From Magnetococcales bacterium (GTDB taxonomy: Bacteria; Pseudomonadota; Magnetococcia; Magnetococcales; UBA8363), in the NCBI GenBank assembly GCA_015228815.1, contig JADGCV010000018.1, positions 1 through 64,000 on the forward strand: DNA of 64,000 nt, given 5' to 3'. Positions within the stretch are counted from its first letter, which is position 1. Each line of letters starts with the position of its first letter. Shown piece after piece: positions 53,103 through 57,551 of the stretch. The position numbers were made by a program, and so were the translations under genes. A model generated the notes under the pieces. It did not search any database. It was not told where the DNA came from and saw nothing but the letters and a program-made list of their open reading frames with translations.

Positions 53103-54448
53103 TCAACTCTTATCATTCAGGGAAGGATACCGTTCCCGAACCACTGCGTCCAATTGTCGTGCAAAGTCAGGATACCGGTCAATGACCCGGTTGAACTCGG
53201 TCCGACTGAGGACATAAAGGTCACAAAAACTGACGGCGCGAACCGTGGCGACCCGTTCGACCTGACGCAACAGGGCAATCTCACCAAAGAACGCCCCGGA
53301 ATTCAGGCGGACCAGGAGTCGTCCCTGGGCATCGAGGACTTCGACCTCGCCATGAAACAGGAAATACATTTCATTGCCCTGGTCCCCTGCGTTGATGATG
53401 GTTTCCCGTGGGGAACAGATGGTGGTGGTGAGACAATTGACCAGATCGGTCAGGCATTCATGGGATGCCTGGGTGAAAAAAGGGACGCTGCGCAGCATGA
53501 ACATGTTGACGTATTTATCGATCTCACGGCGCAATTCCTGCGGCAGTTCGGCGAGGATCTCGGTGGCCATCGTCACCCGATCGCGGAGAAAATGGTCGTA
53601 GAAACTGAAGATGTCGTTCTGGATCGAAAGGGGAATCTCATATTTTTTCATGAAGTCGGCCAGCGCCGAGAATTTTTCGTGCTGCCGTTGTTTCTGGGCA
53701 TTGGCATTGGCAATCACCGTGGAGACGGTACCGATGATGTAACCGTACATGCCGATCCCGACCATCATGACCAGTGTGGCGTAGATGCGGGAAATGTCGG
53801 TTTTCGGCGTGATGTCGCCATAGCCGACCGTCGCCACGGTGACGATCAGCCAGTAGACGGCTTGAATGTAGATCGACAAGGGATCGGTATTGTCGGTTTG
53901 ATAAAGGAGGATCCAGCCGCAGGCAATCAGATTGAGGGCGAGCAGGACCCAGAACAGCAACAGGTAGATCCGAACCTTCTGATTGGTTTCCAGGTAGATC
54001 GCATCGACCAGGGTGTTGCCGGTAGGTCGGCGACGATGCTGGGTACCCGGAACAACCGTAACAAGCGCAACATCCGCAACCAGATGATCACTTCGGCATG
54101 GATCAGGTCCGCCGGCAGAATGGACCACATGACGAAATCCCAGGGAATCGTCGCGATGATGTCGAGCAGGCATCGGTTCTTCAGGTAGTGCCGACGAATC
54201 GCGACCGGATCGGAAATCAATTCGTGTCCCTTGAAGAATGGCGTGCGAAATAATATCAAAATATCGACCATGAACAGGATCGACAGAATAAAGTCCAACC
54301 CGTGGGACCACAAAGGCATATCAAGTCTGAGCGCAATTTCGATGGGTACCGAAAATCCATACCAGGCGATGCCCAGGAGCATCGAATAATTCCAGATCGG
54401 ATTCAGTTGTCCCAGGGTGCGGTGGGTGCCAGGGGTTTCGGTGGTCAT
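53103..54448 (-). pseudogene. Voltage-gated-type potassium channel with cyclic nucleotide-binding domain, frameshifted
   Basis: Two reading frames together encode one six-helix channel. Frame 1 (from ATG 54448) covers S1-S4 with a voltage-sensor-like helix RMLRLLRLFRVPSIVADLP. Frame 2 covers NTLVDAIYLETNQKVRIYLL, S5, the selectivity filter TVATVGYGDITP, S6 and a cyclic nucleotide-binding domain (GEVEVLDAQGRLLVRLNSGA, FFGEIALLRQVERVATVRA). Translation must change frame by -1 near 54020-54050, with one base apparently missing. No slippery heptamer is visible there, so either the gene is broken or an assembly base error is present. The combined product would be about 448 residues. Confidence 0.8.
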
Positions 54449-54814: not shown

Positions 54815-56545
54815 ATGAGTCGGGAAAACCGCTCGGGTTCTGGCTTGGATGAAGAGTCGGTAGTGACACGGCATTTGAGTTACAACCTGTTGACTCCAAG
54901 GATTCGGCGCGACTTGAAGGGGCGAATTGTGCCTCATGTCGCATCGGCGGTCAAACTCAATTTGAGGGATGTTTTTCGTTTGCTGAAGAATTATGTTTCC
55001 CATCGCTTCATGGAACCATTCAAGATCGTTCTTCCCGTGACTCTTGTTCTTTCGGTGTTTCAGTGGAACTTTCTGAAGGATCCATTGTGGCTGATTGTGG
55101 GAATGATTTCGGGGTCGTTTCTGGTGGTCATCGGACTGATGATGCTGGTCGAAGGGTTGCGCCTGGGAATCTTTCCCCTGGGGGAACTCCTGGGTAATGC
55201 CTTGCCGCGAAAATTACCGATGCCTGCGATGTTGTCGATCCTTTTCATTCTCGGAGTGGGGAGTACGTGTTGCGACGCGACCTGGGGATGGATGGAGAGG
55301 GTGGGCGATGCGGTGGATCGGGGAACGATTCCGGATGTGCAGCTCCTGTTGCTCGGTCGAATGGGATGGGTCCTATTGGCGTCAGGAATGGCCGTGGGAT
55401 TGGCCCTTGTGTTGGCGACACTCCGTTTTTTCCACGGTTGGCGCTTTAAAATAATGATTCTTGCCGTGTCGCTTTTGCCTCTGGGGTTGACTGTAATGGC
55501 ATGGATGGATCCATGGGGCAAGGATGTGGTCGGATTGGCCTGGGATTGCGGCGCGGTGGTTCTGGGACCGGTGACGGTTGCGATGTTTCTGGGGTTGGGA
55601 CGGGGGGTGGCGACGGCCCTGTCCAGAGGCAACGAGACAGCATGGGGTTTGGGGATGATCGCGGTCGCTTTTTTTCTGGTCGTGGCTGCGACTTTGGTGC
55701 TTGGAACCCTTTTGGCCGCAACGGTATCTCCCGAGGTCGTTGGGCCCCGGTTGCCGATTCTGGCGGAAGGGACGACGGTTGCGGCGGATCCATCTTCTGG
55801 ATGGATGTTTGTTTATCGTTCCGCGGCGCTTTCCGCCGTGGTGGCGGTGCTTCCCATGGCGGGACTGATGTTTTTCCTGTTGGTTCTGGTCCTTGGGGAA
55901 CGGGTCCAGGGGGTGGGGTTGCTGCTCCATGGGGTGGTTCTGTCCACCCTGGGATTGGCCCTCTTCAATACGGGCATGGGCCTGGGACTGGCGGATGCGG
56001 GGGGACGTCTGGGGCAGTTTTTCGCATCGGCCCTGGCCCGGAATGGAATGATTGATTTATGGTTCGACTCGGGATTCATGTTCGGGATGGTTTTGTTTCT
56101 CGTGGGGACCGTTGCCATCGGTGCAACCTTGGCCGAACCGGGATTGACTGTTTTTACCGCAAATATCGAAAGCCTGTCGCACGGGGTGGCGAGAAAACGA
56201 AAACTGACCCGATCGATGGCCTTTGGCGCGGGCATCGGCGGTTTGGTGGGGGTCGCGGGCATCCTCGCCAACGGCATTCATCTCTGGATGCTGGCGCCTC
56301 TGGGGCTGGTCATTCTTTTCGCAATCTTCGGTTTCCCGGAAGACTGGGGCACCATTTCCTGGGACGGCGGCATGGTGATTTCCGGACCACTCCTGGTGGG
56401 GCTGATCCATCCCCTTGGGATTGGTCTTGGCGGGAGAAGCCACGGGTCGGGGCTGCTTTTTTTCCTCACTGCCGGGGCGATCGTCGCCACACTGTTTACC
56501 GGACGCCTGCAACATGGCGCGTCCTCCGGGAGCGGTATATCATGA
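54815..56545 (+). CDS. DUF1538-family polytopic membrane protein
   Basis: A 576-residue protein with a soluble N-terminal segment of about 65 residues and many membrane helices (for example VFQWNFLKDPLWLIVGMISG, SAALSAVVAVLPMAGLMFF). Two related halves are suggested by similar blocks: FLILGV-type GVGSTCCDATWGWMERVGDA in the first half and GVAGILANGIHLW with GDWGTISWDGGMVISGPL-like text in the second. I recall DUF1538 proteins as uncharacterised membrane proteins often encoded next to P-II-like proteins, which is exactly the context here. It overlaps the first P-II gene by 4 bases. A transport function is likely; the substrate is unknown. Confidence 0.75.
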   Translation: MSRENRSGSGLDEESVVTRHLSYNLLTPRIRRDLKGRIVPHVASAVKLNLRDVFRLLKNYVSHRFMEPFKIVLPVTLVLSVFQWNFLKDPLWLIVGMISGSFLVVIGLMMLVEGLRLGIFPLGELLGNALPRKLPMPAMLSILFILGVGSTCCDATWGWMERVGDAVDRGTIPDVQLLLLGRMGWVLLASGMAVGLALVLATLRFFHGWRFKIMILAVSLLPLGLTVMAWMDPWGKDVVGLAWDCGAVVLGPVTVAMFLGLGRGVATALSRGNETAWGLGMIAVAFFLVVAATLVLGTLLAATVSPEVVGPRLPILAEGTTVAADPSSGWMFVYRSAALSAVVAVLPMAGLMFFLLVLVLGERVQGVGLLLHGVVLSTLGLALFNTGMGLGLADAGGRLGQFFASALARNGMIDLWFDSGFMFGMVLFLVGTVAIGATLAEPGLTVFTANIESLSHGVARKRKLTRSMAFGAGIGGLVGVAGILANGIHLWMLAPLGLVILFAIFGFPEDWGTISWDGGMVISGPLLVGLIHPLGIGLGGRSHGSGLLFFLTAGAIVATLFTGRLQHGASSGSGIS

Positions 56546-56907
56546 CAACCGGCAGACGGACCATCACGTTTTTGACCGAGGTCAAACTGATCACCTGCAT
56601 CGTCCAGCGCGGTCTGGGCGACATCATCGTCAAGGCGGCACGAGACGCCGGGGCCCAGGGGGCGACGGTGTTCTTCGCCAAGGGCAGCGGCGTTCGCGAA
56701 CGGTTGGGGCTCCTGGGCGTTGCGGTCGAGGTCGAAAAGGAGATCGTCAACATTGTCGTCTCTTCCGACCAGATGGAGGGGGTTTTCGAAAGCGTCTACC
56801 TCGCCGGTCAACTCGATACCCCGGGGATGGGGTTCATGTATGTGACGCCCCTGGAAAAGGCAGCCACCTACATTCCTAAGGAGGTCGTCGATAAACTTGG
56901 ACAATGA
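56542..56907 (+). CDS. P-II family regulatory protein
   Basis: A 121-residue P-II-like protein. It has VKLITCIVQRGLGDIIVKAA, EKEIVNIVVSSDQMEGVFES and the C-terminal signature TPLEKAATYIP. The T-loop region (FFAKGSGVRERLGLLGVAVE) lacks the Tyr used for uridylylation in GlnB/GlnK, so it is not a classical nitrogen-signalling P-II. Nucleotide sensing coupled to the adjacent membrane protein is the obvious hypothesis, by analogy with GlnK-AmtB. It overlaps the DUF1538 gene by 4 bases and the next P-II-like gene by 11. Confidence 0.85.
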   Translation: MTTGRRTITFLTEVKLITCIVQRGLGDIIVKAARDAGAQGATVFFAKGSGVRERLGLLGVAVEVEKEIVNIVVSSDQMEGVFESVYLAGQLDTPGMGFMYVTPLEKAATYIPKEVVDKLGQ

Positions 56908-57307
56908 CCCGAAGGAGTGCCAAACCGTCCCTCCCTGGATGCGGGAGCATCCACCGGCACGATTGCTGACCTGTATCGTTCCCGATGACGGGATGGATCG
57001 TGCATTGATTCTCGCACTGGAAGACCAGATGGGTCTGTTCACCGCCAACTCCTATCCGTGCCGGGGGTATGGTGTCGGAGAGGGGCTCGGTGGAACGGGC
57101 ATGGCGGGCGACCCGGACGGCATCGTGGCAGTGGCGGTCGTGACGGTGGTGGTTGCCCCGGACCGCGCCATGGAAGTCTTCGATTTCCTGGGCCGAATGA
57201 TCGTCGAACGACTCGGGAAGGGACATGCCCTTCTCTATCAGGGCGAGGTGTCCCACGCGACCCGTTTTGAACTCCCAATCGGGATTCCCGATGAAGCGGA
57301 ACAGTGA
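56897..57307 (+). CDS. Second P-II-like protein of the DUF1538 module
   Basis: A 136-residue protein with a weaker ferredoxin-like P-II pattern: ARLLTCIVPDDGMDRALILA for the first strand and helix, a Gly-rich loop (CRGYGVGEGLGGTGMAGDP) in place of the T-loop, and IVAVAVVTVVVAPDRAMEVF for the second half. The TTG at 56897 overlaps the previous gene and has AAGGAGG 12 bases upstream; ATG 56939 is an alternative start. Two P-II-like proteins per DUF1538 unit recalls what I remember of other genomes. Function unknown. Confidence 0.65.
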   Translation: MDNDPKECQTVPPWMREHPPARLLTCIVPDDGMDRALILALEDQMGLFTANSYPCRGYGVGEGLGGTGMAGDPDGIVAVAVVTVVVAPDRAMEVFDFLGRMIVERLGKGHALLYQGEVSHATRFELPIGIPDEAEQ

Positions 57308-57475: not shown

Positions 57476-57551
57476 GGGGATGTAGCTCAATTGGGAGAGC
57501 GCCTGCTTTGCAAGCAGGAGGTCGTCGGTTCGATCCCGTCCATCTCCACCA
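57476..57551 (+). tRNA. tRNA-Ala (anticodon UGC)
   Basis: A complete 76-nt tRNA with encoded CCA. The acceptor stem GGGGATG (57476-57482) pairs with CATCTCC (57541-547). The anticodon stem is CCTGC/GCAGG with loop TTTGCAA, giving anticodon TGC (Ala). The T-arm GTCGG-TTCGATC is normal. It stands alone, not in an rRNA operon, and its 3' end is a plausible integration site (see the fragment just downstream). Confidence 0.97.

Follow-up and report, generated by a model that had tools for sequence, protein, structure and literature searches.

The pairing of DUF1538 membrane proteins with PII-fold proteins is a near-universal property of the DUF1538 family, and was apparently undescribed before. 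The genes involved form a real and widely conserved module, which would act in the regulation of a known antiporter family. The unit analyzed here resides in a Magnetococcales genome (contig JADGCV010000018.1; the whole stretch of 64,000 nucleotides analyzed is hereafter called the window), and is made by a DUF1538 gene followed by two genes encoding the PII-like proteins A and B. The explanation that we consider rather probable is that the three genes specify a monovalent-cation/proton antiporter of the UmpAB family together with a dedicated PII-fold regulator.

Organization of the operon

ORF calling in the window placed the three-gene unit DUF1538-A-B at exactly 54815-57307 of the forward strand (Table 1). 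DUF1538, with its stop codon at 56543-56545 (TGA), overlaps A, which starts at 56542 (ATG), by 4 nt (ATGA), and B, if translated from the TTG at 56897, overlaps A by 11 nt; a later start (ATG 56939) is possible for B. The reading frames of DUF1538, A and B are intact. The unit is isolated, being flanked upstream by a divergent K+ channel gene and downstream by a tRNA-Ala gene, and the initial annotation, which had described three overlapping genes set apart from their surroundings, was right in this respect. Rfam scans near the unit detected the tRNA alone, and no riboswitch or other element; promoter and terminator scans around the unit gave about what is expected of shuffled sequences.

The channel gene, which encodes a TVGYGD filter and a cNMP domain, is broken in this assembly by a frameshift, at about 54.0 kb, into two overlapping frames. 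The split may be either a genomic frameshift or an assembly error. In four genus mates the channel is a single intact ORF of 438-458 aa, and adjoins the same operon.

Table 1. Features of the DUF1538-A-B unit and of its flanks, in window coordinates
Feature	Position	Strand	Remarks
Cyclic-nucleotide-binding K+ channel gene	53103..54448	-	Ion_trans, Ion_trans_2, cNMP_binding; divergent from the operon
DUF1538 double-domain membrane protein	54815..56545	+	576 aa, ATG start
N-terminal extension	54815..54979	+	About 55 aa, conserved '(I/L)SYN' motif; conserved in alignments of relatives
First DUF1538 repeat	55037..55708	+	PF07556, 101 bits
D154-A155	55274..55279	+	E-P in 59/60 family members; window protein the sole exception
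V249-L250, replacing the TT of the first repeat	55559..55564	+	Pair missing only in the genus of the window
Second DUF1538 repeat	55865..56443	+	PF07556, 75 bits
I522-S523, replacing the TT of the second repeat	56378..56383	+	Pair missing only in the genus of the window
PII-like protein A	56542..56907	+	121 aa, ATG start, short T-loop, highly conserved
PII-like protein B	56897..57307	+	136 aa, TTG start, divergent, Gly-rich loop
tRNA-Ala	57476-57551		Downstream of B

The DUF1538 membrane protein

The membrane protein had been viewed as made of two halves, and indeed the Pfam DUF1538 model (PF07556) matches it over two stretches, one in each half, at 163.5 bits versus a cut-off of 22.6. About 14 transmembrane helices are expected, and the AF2 model is all-helical (pLDDT 85.7, pTM 0.86). 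No solved relative was found at E <= 0.001 in a PDB fold search. The NCBIfam UmpA and UmpB models (NF041627/NF041628) match the protein at 103 bits (E 1e-29) and 58 bits (E 1e-15), respectively. These scores are far under the equivalog cut-offs of 490 and 500, and equivalog status was rejected; the protein is thus a relative, and not an orthologue, of UmpA or UmpB. Judging from its sequence, it looks like a fused UmpA/UmpB pair with two repeats.

In Halomonas zhaodongensis two paired DUF1538 proteins, UmpA and UmpB, jointly carry out Na+(Li+,K+)/H+ antiport at pH 6.5 to 9.5, and are reported to form a heterodimer (PMC5484666). The substrate of the family is therefore not undescribed, as had been assumed. 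The paper makes no mention of PII, and UmpAB is active in E. coli upon co-expression of its two genes alone (PMC5484666), so that basal activity does not need PII. The window protein belongs to the same PF07556 family, in which UmpAB is made by two homologous 7-TM units, and matches both Ump profiles; it differs in that the two units are fused into a single chain, preceded by an N-terminal tail, and in having lost the conserved E-P and TT motifs. Antiport has been demonstrated for UmpAB only (PMC5484666), and transport by the deviant protein of the window is presumed. The N-terminal tail is present at loci with A and B, and absent from loci encoding split UmpAB or three-domain PII proteins (see below); it is a candidate PII docking tail.

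Motifs were compared in 60 diverse DUF1538 proteins. Outside the genus of the window the acidic and TT motifs are near-invariant. In the window protein the acidic residues D244, E441 and D517 are retained, E154 is changed to D and P155 to A. Because near-invariant motifs have been lost, this protein may be no ordinary antiporter; the losses may reflect relaxed constraint, a new substrate, or the conversion of a transporter into a receptor. We consider it less likely than not that the transporter of this lineage now serves another substrate or is degenerating, the antiporter reading then being true for the family and not for this copy. It would fit the E154D and P155A changes, found together in 1 protein out of 60, the loss of the TT pairs of both repeats in this genus alone, the low identity (32-45 %) of DUF1538 proteins inside the genus, and the frameshift in the neighbouring channel gene. 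The three intact reading frames and the persisting acidic residues argue against it.

We think it improbable that DUF1538 is mainly a membrane receptor or sensor which sequesters A and B, as AmtB sequesters GlnK, leaving PII to regulate channels, exchangers and cyclases. Transport motifs have decayed in the genus of the window while A stays 77-86 % identical, and neighbouring ion transporters and cAMP enzymes could be the targets. On the other side, the near-invariance of the acidic and TT motifs elsewhere is what is expected of a working transporter, and UmpAB does transport (PMC5484666).

The PII-like proteins A and B

A passes the Pfam P-II (PF00543) cut-off (33.8 bits versus 25), and matches the structure of GlnB-1 (3o8w, E 2.7e-5). 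Its identity to aligned relatives ranges from 51 to 86 %, and 27 positions are invariant across 24 relatives, some of them in loops (KGSGVRERLG, EKE and DTPGMG). The two GlnB/GlnK proteins of the same genome were taken as canonical reference. Compared with these, the T-loop of A is shorter by about 5 residues and the uridylylation Tyr motif (YRGAEY) was not found in it, in keeping with the atypical T-loop that had been noticed earlier. The ATP-site GDGK and RxR motifs (equivalents of K90, R101 and R103) are missing as well, GMGFMYV and ATYIP being found in their place; the nucleotide sensing attributed to these proteins in the initial annotation is unproven on this ground. As canonical residues are lost and loop residues are invariant, A probably senses or contacts something, and does so other than through the classical ATP/2-oxoglutarate site.

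The window B protein gave no match in the Pfam search, and does not pass the P-II cut-off. The profile of the B family matches A (hhalign probability 98.9 %) and, among solved PII proteins, 6yc6 (E 9e-5), and one B relative passes the P-II cut-off. On these grounds B is PII-like, and the description of the third gene as a second P-II-like gene can be maintained.

A and B, like the three-domain protein, might also serve as constitutive structural components instead of ligand-sensing regulators, a reading that appears to us improbable. The lack of canonical T-loop, GDGK and RxR ligand residues is in line with such a role, and an obligate complex is suggested by the overlap of the genes and by their strict pairing. 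In contrast, the invariant loops of A look like a ligand or interface site, and UmpAB is active without PII (PMC5484666).

DUF1538-PII association in bacterial genomes

A search for relatives retrieved the same gene order in 24/24 fused loci, all carrying both A and B. In a scan of GTDB genomes a PII gene was found directly 3' of DUF1538 in 77 out of 80 named loci; the remaining three are truncated within DUF1538 by the end of the contig. According to the record titles, these loci belong to Magnetococcales, Zetaproteobacteria, SAR116, Gamma- and Betaproteobacteria, Nitrospinota, Bdellovibrionota, Campylobacterota, Bacteroidota, Verrucomicrobiota and other taxa. One downstream PII gene is present in 29/30 UmpAB-type loci, L170 being the exception. 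No genome in the sample reached the UmpA equivalog cut-off; since Halomonas umpAB is absent from the sample above this threshold, the closest UmpA relatives were used, and PII was adjacent in 29/29 of their loci (genomes are partly shared with the UmpAB-type set of 30). DUF1538 homologues consistently lacking PII neighbours, which would speak against the initial annotation, were not seen in any of these sets.

The association holds also in the reverse direction. All 41 genomes with a strong A match carry DUF1538, and the two genes are adjacent in 29 out of 30 such genomes inspected, the remaining one being at a contig end. The weak correlation of distances between DUF1538 and A (r 0.13) counts against the explanation that we prefer, though the correlation between DUF1538 and B is 0.51. 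A literature search for a link of PII to UmpAB or DUF1538 found none. Adjacency of the three genes by chance or general gene density, with no functional linkage, was rejected as virtually inconceivable, as no supporting point was found and the order is conserved in well over 100 loci from many phyla.

Matched forms of transporter and PII protein

The form of the transporter and the form of the PII protein go together, in three combinations. Split UmpA/UmpB are accompanied by one PII protein (33/35), fused DUF1538 proteins with the conserved N-terminal tail by A and B (79/86), and fused DUF1538 proteins without the tail by one three-domain PII protein of about 370 aa (10/13). Some exceptions to the rule linking the tail to A and B correspond to the end of a contig, to masked bases or to a B gene that has diverged.

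Single proteins with three PII-like domains in tandem are encoded immediately 3' of DUF1538 at L102:6483-7604 and L092:7908-9053; further three-domain loci are L095, L097, L100, L101, L107, L109, L112 and L093. The AlphaFold model of the three-domain protein (nine sequences) has pLDDT 79.7 and pTM 0.80, and its single domains match PII structures. The protein is predicted as one compact body, and the high pTM for three domains implies a defined mutual arrangement, which may be that of the usual PII ring. Resemblance to A is clear for domain 2, lower for domain 3 and weak for domain 1, and none is specifically B-like. Equating domain 1 with B was not supported, since the A model outscores the B model on each of the three domains; a 2A:1B stoichiometry accordingly remains a guess.

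Additional arrangements were observed. In the Magnetococcales loci L016 and L082 a split umpA-umpB-PII unit lies immediately upstream of a fused DUF1538-A-B unit, both types being in tandem. A conserved protein with no Pfam match is encoded directly downstream of the PII genes at L046:6296-7021, L051:8559-9338 and ten similar loci, from SAR116, Oxalobacteraceae and others; it is possibly a fourth component. Loci L052, L062, L069 and L076 (Ghiorsea, Mariprofundaceae) encode a related membrane protein after PII, and at L069 the PII-A frame passes through an N stretch into a SpoIIE-type phosphatase domain.

Gene neighbours and candidate signal

A comparison of neighbours across genomes had been proposed as a source of hints, and provided some. 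Among 103 proximal proteins in other genomes, 6 are Na_H_Exchanger, 6 cNMP_binding, 5 TrkA_N and 3 Guanylate_cyc (adenylate/guanylate cyclases) members; none of these families is found among the 25 commonest of 103 distal proteins, where families with two or fewer members may be missing. A rough positional test, with clades grouped by hand, gave a p of about 0.001. The cNMP-binding K+ channel is divergently adjacent to the operon in 5/5 genomes checked from the genus of the window. Such ion and cAMP-related neighbours point to monovalent-cation physiology, and make cAMP a candidate signal, although its reader may be the channel rather than A and B. There is precedent in SbtB, a PII-like protein sensing cAMP/AMP on the Na+-coupled transporter SbtA (PMC8352866), for which cAMP serves as a signal (PMC8352866; PMC10117731).

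Comparison with known systems

The analogy with AmtB-GlnK drawn in the initial annotation holds for the layout, a transporter gene linked to one or more genes of the PII family, and fails for membership. AmtB-GlnK features a single homotrimer gene; here two distinct PII proteins, or one chain with three domains, take its place, and A and B lack the T-loop Tyr motif and the ATP residues. Membership was rejected because the membrane protein matches DUF1538 only in Pfam and shows no relation to Amt by fold search, and the T-loop and ATP residues are missing. Gating by trimers had been envisaged; in the simple symmetric form of AmtB-GlnK it fits poorly, since UmpAB is reported to be a heterodimer, DUF1538 has no detectable relationship to Amt, and the PII part consists of two proteins or of three domains in one chain. 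All transporters so far known to be PII-regulated are trimeric (PMC10710835), and the reported heterodimeric nature of UmpAB (PMC5484666) counts against our own explanation as well.

In SbtA-SbtB (PMC8352866) a transporter is likewise combined with a dedicated non-canonical PII-like protein, and the cAMP theme recurs in the DUF1538 neighbourhood; SbtA, however, is trimeric and belongs to another family, SbtB is encoded by a single gene, and the substrate differs.

PstA/DarA proteins are c-di-AMP-binding members of the PII fold with altered loops, and c-di-AMP is linked to K+ physiology in their hosts; PDB searches with A and B gave no sequence match to them. NifI1 and NifI2 are a two-gene PII pair, paralogues acting together on nitrogenase. 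A and B similarly would be two PII paralogues on one target, but accompany an antiporter rather than nitrogenase. PDB entry 9p1x, found in the B-profile search and which we take to be a NifI complex, holds two PII proteins, in 12 and 6 chains. No report of a NifI heterotrimer was found in a literature search.

Proposed mechanism and significance

In the explanation that we prefer, the operon would encode an UmpAB-family (DUF1538) monovalent-cation/proton antiporter as one chain, and a regulator made of two paralogous PII-fold subunits. Most likely the two assemble into a hetero-oligomer, which is probably trimeric. The complex would dock on the antiporter from the cytoplasmic side, perhaps through the N-terminal tail, and may either raise or lower cation/H+ exchange. 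The trigger would be a change in the ion or energy state, or in a small ligand, for which an adenine nucleotide, cAMP for example, is the probable candidate.

More tentatively, and at less than even odds in our judgement, these systems may represent a widespread, overlooked class of signal-gated cation/proton antiporters with an asymmetric PII regulator that reads a cAMP-linked signal. In Proteobacteria this regulator would be a heterotrimer of A and B; Bacteroidota, Verrucomicrobiota and others would instead combine a single-chain antiporter with a covalent pseudo-trimer, its three PII domains being non-identical. If so, an asymmetric PII assembly would break the pattern of symmetric PII homotrimers on trimeric transporters. 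As its domains are separately mutable, the natural three-domain PII protein allows the question of symmetry in PII-transporter control to be tested directly.

New here are the near-universal association, the matched architectures, the noncanonical PII residues and the enrichment of ion and cAMP neighbours. The UmpAB family, experimentally demonstrated yet poorly understood, gains a near-universal candidate regulatory partner, and the reach of PII control would extend beyond the uptake of nitrogen and carbon, into the homeostasis of monovalent cations and pH.
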